Origin: Fomitopsis serialis
Lineage: Eukaryota; Basidiomycota; Agaricomycetes; Polyporales; Fomitopsidaceae
DNA length: 64,000 nucleotides
Assembly: GCF_022376445.1 (NCBI RefSeq)
Contig: NW_025954998.1
Span: 62,001-126,000, forward strand
Direction of reading: 5' to 3'
Notes under the pieces: generated by a model
The model's database searches: none
Seen by the model: only the letters and a program-made list of their open reading frames with translations
What the model was told of the DNA's origin: nothing
Position numbers and translations under genes: made by a program
Shown here: piece by piece, positions 26,189-50,042 of the stretch
Numbering within the stretch: the first letter of the stretch is position 1
How the letters are laid out: each line of letters opens with the position of its first letter

Positions 26189-27619
26189 TCACGCAGCCGC
26201 AGCGATCCGCCGCGACACCTCGAGCTCAGGAGCCAGCTGCGGTACCTCCTGCTTCGAGCCCATGACGTCGCCCGTTTTCAGCCCGAGCTGCATCTTGTGC
26301 GCTCGGCACTCCGCCAAGAAGTCCGTGAACATCTAAGCGCACAAGCGTCAACACCCAGTCACACCACCACGCCGTCAACGCCGGTGCTCACCTCGATCGT
26401 GTCCAGCGGGCCGCCCGCACTCTCAGGGTGGAACTGCACCCCCCAGACCTTCTTCCCGCTCTGCGTCGTGCTCTTGATCCCCTCCACGCTCGAGTCGTTG
26501 CAGTTGATGAAGAACGGCTCCCAGCCTTCGGGGAACGGGTCCTGCAACCGCAGCGCATACTGGTGGTTCTGGCTCGTGACGTACACCCGCCCCGCGCGGA
26601 TGCTCCCCGACGACGCCAGCGCGAGCACGGGCTGGTTGTGGCCGCGGTTGCCGAACGTCATCCGGTACGCGTCCAGGCCCGCCGCCATCCCGATCACCTG
26701 GTGGCCCATGCAGATCCCGAAGATCGGGCGGTCCCACTCGCGCAGCGTCCGCCGCAGGTGCAGCGCCGCGGGCATGCAGTGCGCGGGGTCGCCCGGCCCG
26801 TTCGAGAGGAACAGCCCGTCGTACCTGTCCCGGATCGCGTTGAAGTCGTAGTCCCACGGCAACACCGTCACCGCGGCGCCTCGCCGCACGAGCGCGCGCA
26901 GGATGTTCGCCTTCGCGCCGAAGTCAGCACCGCGATCTTGACGTCGCCCGACGGGTTCAAGTCGTACGGCTCCGTGGTCGACACTTGTGCGACGAGATTT
27001 TCCTCCGTGGGGTCCCAGTACTCTTCTGACTGGGGAGATGGTAGGCCAGCATCAGGTCCAACCGCGAGTCGGCCTAGTGTGGTACCCTGATCGCGGAGAA
27101 GACGCGTGATGGCGCGGGTGTCGACACCTGTGATGCCGGGGACGTTGTACCGCGCGCACCACGCCGCGAGGCTCTCAGCGGCAGCATGGTGTGAGTACCT
27201 TTCCGCCACATCCGCAACGACGACGCCCGCGCACTGTATGGATTCAGACTCAAGCACGACTCCGACGTCGCGCGAGTCGACGGGCGTGCGGTTGTGCGGG
27301 ACACCGTAGTTCCCAATGAGAGGTGTAGTGAAGACGAGGATCTGTCCCCGGTATGACGGGTCTGTCATCGACTCTGTGTCTGTAGAGGCGTCAGTCGGCA
27401 TAGGAGAGGAAAGTGAAAGCACACACAAGATGTGATCGACGTCGAAAACACGGTCTCGCCAAAGACGCTATGCGGTGCACCGAAGGAGCGACCCTGGAAC
27501 GACTGGCCCGTCTTCAGGTGCAACACCGCCGGGACCGACGCGTTGCCCTGTATTTTAGCATGCGTAGCAAGACCGCGGTAGAACCGCGGAACACGGGTGA
27601 GGGTTCGCGCAAACATCAT
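26189..27619 (-). CDS. CPA1: Arginine-specific carbamoyl-phosphate synthase, small (glutaminase) subunit
   Basis: Hydrolyses glutamine and passes ammonia to the large subunit to make carbamoyl phosphate for arginine synthesis, probably in mitochondria. Exons 27619-27427, 27379-26392 and 26332-26189 sum to 1325 bases; one missing base near 26925 (KIAVL-DFGAKANILRAL) restores 441 residues. The N-terminus MMFARTLTRVPRFYRGLATH looks like a mitochondrial presequence. CPSase_sm signatures: LHLKTGQSFQGRSFGA, GETVFSTSITSYTESMTDPS, TTPLIGNYGVP, GVDTRAITRLLR. The class I amidotransferase domain has GLFLSNGPGDP, the nucleophile in FGICMGHQV, and the His-Glu pair in VQFHPESAGGP. Expression is probably arginine-controlled through the leader uORF ending 10 bases upstream of this start. 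Confidence 0.95.
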
Positions 27620-27629
27620 GGCGGCCGTC

Positions 27630-27752
27630 TTAATGGCTGAGCAGAGAGAAAACGAGGTCGCTGAGGTAACTGACAACGATGAGTATGTCTGGGAGGAGAG
27701 AAGGGGAACGGGAAGAGACTCACTCGTCGCGAGTGTTCTGCGTGAAGATCAT
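27630..27752 (-). promoter_or_regulatory. Spliced uORF encoding an arginine attenuator peptide (AAP)
   Basis: In the CPA1 leader an ATG at 27752 opens a frame that begins MIFTQNTRD. A donor GTGAGT follows base 27724, and an acceptor TCAG ends at 27670. Joining 27752-27724 to 27669-27630 gives a 22-residue peptide with the core DYLSD, followed by eight residues and TAA at 27632-27630. Neurospora arg-2 and yeast CPA1 leaders encode 24-25 residue peptides with the same DYLSD/DYISD core; arginine makes the ribosome stall at their end. Here too eight residues follow the core, as in Neurospora. Unspliced, the frame stops after 10 codons and lacks the core. Confidence 0.85.
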
Positions 27753-27934
27753 GTACGAGCGGGGTCGCTCAGAGGAGGGAGGCGGTCGAGAGCAAATTAT
27801 TCGAGTCACAGTTGGAGTCCAATGTGTTGCCTGCAAATTTTCGGAGCTCGTACGCTCGATTACGTCAGGTTTACCTGATGCGGCAATCACTGGCATCGAC
27901 AACGCCTTGCTCAGGCTGTATACCAACCGCTTGG

Positions 27935-28110
27935 CAATGCAATTCGTGTGCGATAAATCTTGAGTATCATACCATGAGCCACGATGGTAAATGAGACAGA
28001 GGCCGCTCTGCGATACGCAGCTACGGGCGGGATAGTCACCCAAAACGGTAAGATGACTACCGGATTTAGCCATTGCCTGCCTGTCGTGCACTGTCGAGAC
28101 TCGGGATACA
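27935..28110 (-). repeat. Dispersed repeat fragment, downstream of F-box copy 2
   Basis: The reverse complement of this stretch closely matches 48997-49235. Shared blocks include TAGCTGCGTATCGCA, GCGGCCTC, GTCTCATTTACCAT and TTCATGGTATGATACTCAAG (GCTCATGGTATGATACTCAAG here). It lies just beyond the 3' end of the inverted F-box copy. Confidence 0.6.
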
Positions 28111-28362
28111 TTTAGATTCGATACAAACCCCTTCACTGTTGGAGACTTTTGCATGCTTGTATCTCTTGGAGGTGATTGGATCTTCGCCAATTAGCACGAA
28201 GTTGGATGCAGGATGTAGGTAGCCTCCTCATATATTGAAGAGGAAAGCAGCGTAACCATCGTCCACGCGAGTACTACAATACCTTGAAACAACTGTACTG
28301 ATGCGACCTTCGTCATCTCTACTACCATTTATTTGACAAAACGGTCAGGATAGCCTTCGGAG

Positions 28363-30083
28363 TCAGTCATAGCATTCAATAACCCGGCGAGTCTTCTGCA
28401 CTTTTCCAGTCTCATCGAAGACCTTCGTCCAAAACGACGCCCAGCCGTCTGGGCGAATCATTGCCTTTGACGACTGGATATCCAAGGCAGGAAACAGGAG
28501 ATCCATGACATGTGCCACCCTGGAAAGGTCCGTACTACCATTGTCACCAATGTCCCTGAGATCGGCTGCTTGACGGACCGACAAGAGCTTCAGCTTATTC
28601 CTACGATGGCGGCGCTCTCCTTCGGCTTCAGGGATGATAAGTGGCCATGCGACGTACTCCAGGCTGACCTGCGTTAGAGAAGGACAGGCGTCCGCAAATT
28701 CCGCGATGCCTCGCAATGTAGGCAGCGCTCGGTACCACTTGCACAGGACACTGAAAACGGACAGCGCTGGCCATCGCGCTGCCAGCACCATCAAGTCCGC
28801 GTCCGTGAAGGAAACCCTCCCCAAGGCGGCGGACAGCATGCACACACGTAGGTTGAACACTGGGAGAAGTGGATCCAATATCTCCATGAGGTTGAGCCCA
28901 TATAGTTCGGCGCACTCCAGGTGAACTTCCGTGAGTGTGCTGGAGTAGCGATTGCAGAGAGGATAGAGGGTTCTGTGCATGACTTCTCTGTAATCAAACT
29001 TTCCCGAAATCCACAGAGTGCACAATCGAGGAGGGACGATCATCTCCGCCGCCCGAGCGATGGCCTCTTGGTTGCCAGAAATGGCCAGACACTCCAGATA
29101 CGCGAAGCCACCTGGGAGAGGCGTAGACTCGCCGAGAAAGGCGACCACAGAGAGCCGAAGCGTGTGTAGATGCGGGAATGTGGCGAGGGACCGCAGGATA
29201 TCGGTATCGCAGTTATGCCAGACTGAGATGTCCACGATACGGAGGTTCGTGAAAGCGAGGATGGAATGCAAATCCCAGTGGGATGGCTGATCGATCACCC
29301 TCAGAGTTTCGATATTCGGCGATGAAGATTGGAGGTGGGTGACCAGCGTATCCAACTCCAGCATTGTGCCATCGGTGGTACTCTCCCGTGGTCGAGATCC
29401 TAAGGGTAGGGACGGCATGTACATCGACGAATCGCTATCATGAAGTGTGATGGAGAACGGAGAACGAGAGCAACGATGGCCCTACGACCCACTTCGCAGC
29501 GATTGCCGTGAACGGAGTGTGTTCGCAATTAAGCTCCCTAATATCAGGAAGAAGTGGACAATGTAAACCCGCATCCTTTAGATGATCGAACACGGAGGGG
29601 TTGAGTGGCGGGAATCGGTGGATGTTGAGTACGCGCACAAAGCTGGCGTAATGGTTGAATCGTAGATTGCCATCAGGTGTAATCGCTTCGTCAAACGCCT
29701 GCACATACATATGCCCTTTATGAACAACTGGCTCTCGGAAGGAATGGTCGATGTGATTCTCACCCAAGAGTAGTCTGTGCCGCGCTCAGGAACTTCAAGG
29801 CCGTGCCACCCACGGTGTCCGATCGGCAGTTCGTCCCCTAGTATGGGTCGACATCGCAGCGGCGCAAGAAGGGATAGCAGCGGCCTCAGAGATGGTAAAT
29901 GTCTCCACAACGCTGGCAGCGCGTATCGCGAGAACTTCCTACACGTACGAGCTAGCTGTGCAAGGCTTTGCGCCTTTCCAGTTCGTCCTTGAATTCCATG
30001 CATAGTATCTGCTCCAAGATATCCTGGATGATATCGTCCGTAAACAGAGCTCGATGAGCCATAGTGGGTGTTGTGGTTGTCAT
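28363..30083 (-). pseudogene. F-box protein, copy 2 (inverted, frame-broken)
   Basis: Closely related to the gene at 21523-23245 along its whole length. The start MTTTTPTMAHRALFTDDIIQ at 30083 is conserved, as is the intron between SW (near 29770) and AFDEAITPDG. LRR-like segments SFVRVLNIHRF, TNLRIVDISVW, HLHTLRLSV and YLECLAISGN match copy 1, with many conservative changes such as NLYGFDLME to ELYGLNLME. Two lesions: one A is missing near 29965 (ERRK-SLAQLARTCRKF), and the 7-base unit GTTCTCC is tandemly duplicated near 29457, shifting the frame between SLLSFS and the next exon part (29424 onward). The duplication is not a homopolymer error, so this copy may be a real pseudogene or make two partial products. 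The downstream 353-codon frame is fully open. Confidence 0.65.
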
Positions 30084-48575: not shown

Positions 48576-50042
48576 TATCGCGGATAGGACATCACGTTGA
48601 CGTCAAGAAATATGGTTTTTGGATGATTCGTTTGTTCTTGCATGCATCTCACTGGACTGTCACATCTGCCCACCATTGTACTAGCTGTAGCATTGTTACT
48701 ATCATCGCCTTCGCATCATTCCAGCGTCCCACATCTCGCTATATCGATAGAGGCTCAATAATGGAACACATCACGCGTCAGATACATGATTCCACTGTTC
48801 ACGATACGATGAAATGGCGGTTTTGTACAAGGTTGGGTCGACCGGAGGTCTGCGTTATGTCTGAGGAGTTTTAGACAATAACGCAGACTACTTCGGCATA
48901 AAATGGATCGTCATCGAAATAACCGAGTGTCGAGCTTCCGGGCTTAGCCTGAACCCGTAGCCTACTTACGCCTGGCATGATACTAATACGAACAGACAGG
49001 CGATGACTCGATTTCGTAGTCACCCTAAGTACCGCTTTGACAGTTGTGCCCCAACGGTCACCTCAGCTTATATCCTAGCGGCCGAGAAATGTACACAGGT
49101 GCTCCCATTGTCACTCTACTTACTTAGACCATCAGTACTAGCTGCGTATCGCAAAGCGCTGCAAAGCGGCCTCAGTCTCATTTACCATTATAGTTCATGG
49201 TATGATACTCAAGAGTTATCGCGCATGAACTGATATTGCAGCTAGGCTGCAGGCAAGCAGCCACGGCGCAGCATGACCCCATAGCCGCCACATCCCGAAT
49301 TAAGCAATTCCCGCCTTAACGGGGCGCCGATTAGCGCACGTGTCCTTTCTAATTACCTGTGTGTGTGAGGCGTGCCAGAGCCCAAACGACGCGGTCCGTG
49401 TTCTACAATCCAGTAACAGGTGTTTCCTCAGAAGTACTTTCGATTTTCCCGGTTACATTCTGAGGGAGCCGCACAATATCAATGGCCGATCGCAGCAGAT
49501 TGGGAGCTCGCCAGGCATTGGCAATGCGCTGCAGCCGTCGCCGGATCCTCACCGAAAGCTCGCGAGGGTTTTGCTATTTCATAGCAGCACAGTTTGGGAT
49601 TGGAGTAGCCTTCATGAGAATGATATCAGCGGTCTGTACATTTCTGTGTGGGTAGCTTCTCACTACTTGTGCCGCGCCGTGTCAACTGAGCATGATGAAG
49701 ACCACACTGACCGCAAGGGGAACCGTCTCCGCGGTTTCATGGATCACAGCATGACCCAAAGCCAGAGGAGCGTATACTACATAGGCGAATAGTTGTCGCC
49801 TGAGTTCGAGCAACAGCCGACTTACCAGCCACCCGGCGGGATCCAGCCACATCGGACGGCGGGGTCGGAGCCTGATTTGGAAACAGCAGCGGCGCGCCCG
49901 GGCGCTTGCCCAAGGTTCAACTGCCAAAAAGCGCCAACGGCCACTCTTGGTCACCGCGCTCTCACAGGCAGCCACTCCCCCTTGCCCCCCAACCACTACC
50001 ACCTCCCCCGTCTCGCAGCAGCGTCTCTCCTCCCCCCACACC
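48576..50042. other. Intergenic interval carrying F-box-linked repeat relics
   Basis: Bases 48997-49235 match the reverse complement of 28110-27935, with an extra block (about 49040-49130) that matches 21405-21490 upstream of F-box copy 1. Bases 49253-49340 match the promoter of F-box copy 2 (reverse complement of 30270-30195): shared CCATAGCCGCCACATCC, AAGCAATTCCCGCCT and GCGCACGT/AACGCACGTG blocks. No F-box coding sequence remains. The final 500 bp are presumably the promoter and leader of the RING gene. Confidence 0.55.

Follow-up and report, generated by a model that had tools for sequence, protein, structure and literature searches.

A splice-assembled upstream open reading frame in a basidiomycete CPA1 leader probably encodes a divergent arginine attenuator peptide

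Introduction

Few nascent-peptide regulators have been studied as closely as arginine attenuator peptides (AAPs), and the known work centres on Ascomycete peptides that carry a Trp after the core; a Trp in this segment (Trp-19 of Neurospora) is important. To our knowledge, the upstream open reading frames (uORFs) of yeast and Neurospora are read from unbroken frames. The AAPs of Neurospora crassa arg-2 and Saccharomyces cerevisiae CPA1 (PF08252, Leader_CPA1; PDB 2xl1) are encoded, as is the peptide described here, by a uORF in the leader of the gene for the small subunit of arginine-specific carbamoyl-phosphate synthase (CPS). In the yeast peptide the substitution D13N abolishes the arginine response (excerpt of PMC7969011).

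Among basidiomycetes, Cryptococcus neoformans and C. deneoformans have a conserved CPA1 uORF that has been called an AAP; ribosome occupancy of the uORF is strong, CPA1 translation is low and the mRNA level rises 5-fold in a upf1 mutant (excerpt of PMC7049704, in which Hood et al., 2007 is cited for conserved CPA1 uORFs). The likeness of that uORF to the one reported here is one of gene and description. An AAP-like peptide with an essential Asp is also encoded by a uORF of Toxoplasma gondii ApiAT1, where it confers arginine-dependent repression of the downstream frame; this is a transporter gene of an apicomplexan, and convergent evolution has been proposed if the function is shared (excerpt of PMC8370653). 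Plant conserved-peptide uORFs resemble the present one in that their peptides are conserved, with conserved intron positions in one group, and in plant uORF–mORF fusions alternative splicing alters the uORFs; the peptides and genes are different, and the portions of these papers that were available mention no arginine sensor (excerpts of PMC2075485 and PMC3426882). On the evidence of Coprinopsis cinerea, the start context preferred in Agaricomycetes is reported to resemble the one used by Pezizomycotina and mammals (excerpt of PMC5487733).

Here we describe the leader of a CPA1 gene in a 64,000-nt stretch of fungal DNA (the window). It is very probable that the CPA1 mRNA carries a conserved uORF that is assembled by splicing and encodes a basidiomycete-type AAP, at which an arginine-dependent stall would block CPA1 translation.

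Methods

The genome that was searched comprised 66.2 Mb in 806 contigs. For the chance scan, unspliced frames and frames joined across any single GT[AG]NG...[CT]AG intron of 40–100 nt were searched for ATG...DY[LI]SD followed by 4–14 residues and a stop. The 20 control stretches from the same genome were drawn from three contigs and do not constitute a random sample.

Relatives of the peptide were sought among 5.8 billion proteins using a 40-residue composite query, which returned two candidates, the Neurospora AAP itself and the environmental protein P0123. In a second search, three of 37 candidates were returned at E ≤ 10, namely P0123, which had formed part of the query, together with P0124 and P0125. 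Intron-bearing forms can be found in this way only where the read-through is open, and the frequency of open read-through is not inferable from them. The branch site was assigned by eye from its fit to a consensus.

Results

The CPA1 gene and the architecture of its leader

Matches to PF00988 and PF00117 were obtained in the two open segments of the gene. The protein showed 93 % identity to its counterpart in Rhodofomes roseus, a polypore, 91 % to that of Daedalea quercina and 90 % to that of Fomitopsis schrenkii, which points to a Fomitopsidaceae-like polypore as the source of the window. A second in-frame ATG at 27616 followed the one at 27619, and in seven of eight aligned related proteins the start Met corresponded to the second. 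Near 26920 (26915–26930, minus strand) the frame shifted by one base between KIAVL and DFGAKANIL, a site at which the frame was unbroken in all eight aligned relatives; the shift is likely to be an assembly error, the alternative being a real lesion. The CPA1 leader region was present in the genome as one full copy, and the exon-1 codon pattern of the uORF occurred once in the 66 Mb.

Table 1. Positions of features of the CPA1 leader and gene within the window
Feature	Position	Strand	Basis
uORF start codon ATG	27752-27750	minus	sequence
uORF exon 1 (29 nt): MIFTQNTRD and GA of the Asp-10 codon	27724..27752	minus	sequence
Leader intron (54 nt), GTGAGT...ACTCATC...TGTCAG; phase 2, falling between GA and T of the Asp-10 codon	27670..27723	minus	sequence
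uORF exon 2 (40 nt): T of Asp-10, then YLSDLVFSLLSH, TAA	27630..27669	minus	sequence
In-frame TGA inside the intron, 100 nt 5′ of the CPA1 ATG; ends the unspliced uORF	27720..27722	minus	sequence
Gap between uORF stop and CPA1 ATG (10 nt), GACGGCCGCC; G at −3 of the CPA1 ATG	27620..27629	minus	sequence
Stretch with a possible alternative acceptor (CCTCAG) at its end, 9 nt 3′ of the main acceptor	27661..27669	minus	sequence only
Next in-frame ATG upstream of the uORF; 70-aa N-terminally extended form after splicing if transcripts reach there	27894..27896	minus	sequence
CPA1, carbamoyl-phosphate synthase small chain; introns 27426-27380 and 26391-26333	26189..27619	minus	Pfam, alignment; stop read from sequence with the last frame

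Read directly from the minus strand and joined across the leader intron, the two uORF exons (Table 1) gave MIFTQNTRDDYLSDLVFSLLSH, a frame of 22 codons followed by TAA (27632–27630). The start codon, GTGAGT donor, TCAG acceptor, DYLSD-containing frame and 10-nt distance to the CPA1 ATG that an earlier note on this DNA had described were all recovered in this reading. The uORF start lay in the context TCGTAC-ATG-A, with T at −3, as against the G at −3 of the CPA1 start, which lies within GCCGCCATG.

The leader intron had GT...AG ends and a candidate branch site, CTCAT, whose A was 10 nt before the last base of the intron, and the first AG after this site was that of the TGTCAG acceptor. Its length was ordinary, intermediate between the 47 and 59 nt of the introns within CPA1, so that by ends, branch site and length it has the features of a spliceosomal intron, as predicted from sequence. 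The tandem acceptor at 27661 was built from the Tyr-Leu-Ser codons, and its predicted use would remove YLS and keep the frame. Left unspliced, the uORF read MIFTQNTRDE*, 10 codons lacking the DYLSD core, and there was no ATG between its stop and the CPA1 ATG.

The uORF frame was also open upstream (27720–28154, minus strand) through ATGs at 27896, 28073 and 28154; longer transcripts, if they start above these ATGs, would encode N-terminally extended peptides. A TGACTC element, similar to a Gcn4/Cpc1 site, was present on the minus strand at 27808, 56 nt upstream of the uORF ATG, with a second at 28365; these may be due to chance. Further upstream of the leader, a 72-nt stretch (27940–28011) showed 86 % identity to 49161–49232, 21 kb away and in the opposite orientation.

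The peptide and its break point in environmental proteins

The three environmental proteins read as follows: P0123, MIFTQNTRD-EYVFICFPKEKILIFVLLIMNHS-YLSDLVFSLLDPFKTF; P0124, MIFTQNTRD-EYVLISFNGAPKLISIS-YLSDLVFSLIEDLSNPKAA; and P0125, LNHQHSCSSTLAHCSY-MLFTQNTRDDYLSDLVFSLINL, the last with the exons already joined. E-values were weak (5.5 for P0123 in the first search; 0.012 and 0.11 in the second) because the peptide is short and the database of 5.8 billion proteins is large. The relatedness of P0123–P0125 is argued instead from the long identical stretches, which reached 17 consecutive residues between P0125 and the window peptide, and from the coinciding break point.

The nine residues of exon 1 were identical in P0123 and P0124, and eight of them were in P0125; of the exon-2 residues YLSDLVFSLL, all 10 were kept in P0123 and nine in each of P0124 and P0125. 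Once the read-through residues had been removed, 18 of the first 20 columns were invariant in all four sequences. The number of residues between core and stop was 8 in P0125, 12 in P0123 and 15 in P0124. A Tyr precedes the Met of P0125, which places T at −3 there too.

The middle segments of P0123 and P0124 differed from each other in length and sequence, and both were inserted exactly at the place of the window's intron. Both opened with E-Y-V and closed with S before Y, which fits a phase-2 intron (GAG TAY GTN ... AGT), as the residues permit GTAYGT and AG ends; introns of 66 nt (P0123) and 48 nt (P0124) at the same phase-2 place are implied. The joined form of P0125, encoded on a 1191-nt contig, represents either a transcript or an intron-less gene; the contigs of P0123 and P0124 measure 4038 and 3842 nt, respectively. 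At the level of protein sequence, all three environmental proteins thus conserve the peptide, and P0123 and P0124 also conserve the break point, which in the window is the predicted intron within the GA|T of Asp-10.

The string that would mark the same leader elsewhere is MIFTQNTRDDYLSDLVFSL upstream of CPA1 together with a phase-2 intron. No fungal leader was found when viral_contigs were scanned with CPA1 (three stretches, with one relative at 44 % identity) or when the prokaryote genomes of genome_contigs were scanned with a polypore CPA1 protein (76 stretches with 61 relatives, all bacterial by record title), and the exon-1 pattern had no matches in viral_contigs. By title we take these 61 relatives to be largely Bacteroidales and kin, a composition biased by the search patterns.

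Consequences of intron retention

Retention of the intron had been expected to give a 10-codon frame without the core. This is so in the window; in P0123 and P0124 the retained form instead carries an in-frame insert that places Ser before YLSD. The outcome common to all three intron-bearing sequences is the loss of the Asp of DYLSD, and the early stop is not shared.

These features bear on the idea that splicing of the leader intron is itself regulated and forms a second input, the spliced form being arginine-repressible and the retained form escaping. The retained 10-codon uORF would then allow reinitiation, so that CPA1 would be made regardless of arginine, an arrangement that would add to the AAP reading and does not exclude it. 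The intron splits exactly the essential Asp codon, and retention would remove this Asp in P0123 and P0124 as well; the retained uORF of the window is short, with its stop 100 nt 5′ of CPA1 and no ATG between, which would favour reinitiation; and the in-frame second acceptor could also spoil the core. Against this, the intron signals are ordinary and the length lies between those of the two CPA1 introns, and the retained frames of P0123 and P0124 stay open into exon 2 with no early stop, so that the escape route is not conserved there. Regulated splicing at this intron is accordingly considered unlikely. The broader proposal that Agaricomycete arginine attenuation is gated by splicing, with a fixed intron in the essential Asp codon and a sensor that would be turned off by retention or by use of the 27661 acceptor, is similarly improbable.

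Comparison with Ascomycete arginine attenuator peptides

In position and core the window peptide resembles an AAP: the uORF lies upstream of the gene for the small subunit of arginine-specific CPS, and it has the motif T..DY(L/I)SD, including the critical Asp, and the core is followed by a tail of eight residues in the window just as in Neurospora and yeast. The earlier note had drawn the parallel with the eight-residue Neurospora tail, and the Neurospora peptide (P0122, which has the same letters as PDB 2xl1) bears it out. Asp-13 of the yeast peptide is the equivalent of the split Asp-10. In the stop-anchored alignment seven of 22 positions were common to Neurospora, namely T, D, Y, L, S, D and a later L, and M, T, D, Y, S and D were invariant when both Ascomycete peptides were aligned. 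Of 20,000 shuffles in each comparison, 12 attained the stop-anchored score for Neurospora and none did for yeast; for the best local score the counts were 42 and 2, respectively. Profile–profile comparison with the Ascomycete AAPs gave P = 4.7e-5 and a probability of 68 %. A profile match to 2xl1 was rejected as independent support, as the profile already contained the Neurospora peptide, and the window peptide alone had no match in the PDB set at E ≤ 10.

The differences lie in the segment after the core and in the gene structure. The window peptide has Phe in place of the Ascomycete Trp and Leu in place of His, and the Phe/Leu form was found in all four sequences, that is, in the window and in the three relatives; in addition, the window frame spans two exons whose junction falls inside the Asp codon. 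At the curated cut-off of 18.5 bits, PF08252 did not match the window peptide, its 70-aa extended form or the form produced by the alternative acceptor, nor did it match P0123 and P0124 (unspliced forms), P0125 or trimmed P0125, whereas the Neurospora and yeast controls scored 56 and 58.8 bits, respectively. None of four peptides, the two known AAPs among them, was matched in NCBIfam, which makes this result uninformative.

In a search of the genome, the PF08252 model hit only two places, both under the cut-off and elsewhere than the CPA1 leader. When a second AAP was sought in the genome by a codon pattern for a DYLSD-like core with an aromatic or similar residue after it, the two matches, on contigs C160 and C796, were read as part of a protein, presumably ABCE1/RLI1, rather than of a leader, and were rejected. 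The copies on C160 and C796 were diverged from each other, and the 66-Mb assembly may hold uncollapsed haplotypes.

The assignment as an AAP-type uORF is thus upheld by position, the T..DYLSD core, the eight-residue tail, the weak start context and the conservation of peptide and break point, and is qualified by Phe/Leu for Trp/His and by the lack of a Pfam match. In its position, its core and its probable mechanism the window peptide is AAP-like; it is a divergent form outside the Pfam definition. The same missing Trp and His raise the question of whether the uORF is translated into a conserved peptide that responds to a signal other than arginine or represses constitutively, and both the Phe and Leu found at these places in every sequence and the silence of the Pfam AAP model speak for this. 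The Asp, Tyr, Ser and second Asp of the core and the upstream Thr are nevertheless kept, the downstream gene is the same arginine gene, and the CPA1 uORF of Cryptococcus is described as an AAP (excerpt of PMC7049704), all of which make such a function quite unlikely.

Occurrence of the frame by chance

The CPA1 uORF was the only frame that passed the scan on either strand of the whole window. None of 1500 dinucleotide-shuffled leaders yielded a spliced or unspliced uORF with DY[LI]SD, and none of the 20 control stretches of 10 kb (400,000 bases, both strands) passed, either with this core or with the looser D[YF][LIVM][ST]D. That an ordinary 5′-UTR intron lies beside a meaningless frame which happens to read DYLSD is therefore extremely unlikely: the core is only five residues long, one splice is needed to read it and the single-sequence tests (PDB set and Pfam) were negative, but the shuffled leaders and control bases gave nothing comparable and the idea is already contradicted by three environmental proteins that keep 18 of 20 positions, two of them sharing the break point.

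Discussion

The reading that we favour, a splice-assembled uORF encoding an AAP, would operate as follows. Removal of the intron would join the Asp-10 codon and make the full DYLSD core readable, and the peptide would be synthesised by ribosomes starting at the weakly placed uORF AUG. When arginine is plentiful, the nascent chain would stall ribosomes at the uORF stop, 10 nt 5′ of the CPA1 AUG, where they would block scanning ribosomes; the mRNA might also be targeted for decay. When arginine is scarce, ribosomes would get past and CPA1 would be made. The T at −3 of the uORF, found also in P0125, and the G at −3 of CPA1 fit leaky scanning, and with only 10 nt left beyond the uORF stop, ribosomes that have read the spliced uORF would be unlikely to reinitiate at CPA1. 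For the window leader, we infer stalling, the arginine response and decay by analogy with known AAPs.

A need for splicing is strongly implied by the sequence, because the unspliced frame lacks the core. As the intron splits the Asp-10 codon, and as the change of the equivalent Asp to Asn kills the response in yeast and the equivalent Asp of the Toxoplasma ApiAT1 uORF is also required, unspliced mRNA is predicted to be incapable of making the sensor. The peptide is probably a divergent AAP of basidiomycete-wide occurrence.

No title or opening of an abstract among the matches listed in the literature search dealt with an AAP uORF interrupted by an intron. Basidiomycete AAPs or the intron may already be described by Hood et al. 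(2007) or Spevak et al. (2010), and the novelty of a basidiomycete AAP with an intron is provisional. In a search of the literature for peptide strings, those of the present peptide were absent, but so were those of known AAPs, and the result hence carries little weight.

The Phe/Leu form, conserved in all four sequences, offers a test of what the ribosome tunnel requires for arginine sensing. With an intron within the Asp codon, such peptides would be expected to escape scans for uORFs in unspliced genomes, and the Pfam model does miss them. The leader intron is also well suited to asking whether splicing feeds into amino-acid control; if it is indeed regulated, two layers of control would be coupled through a single codon.
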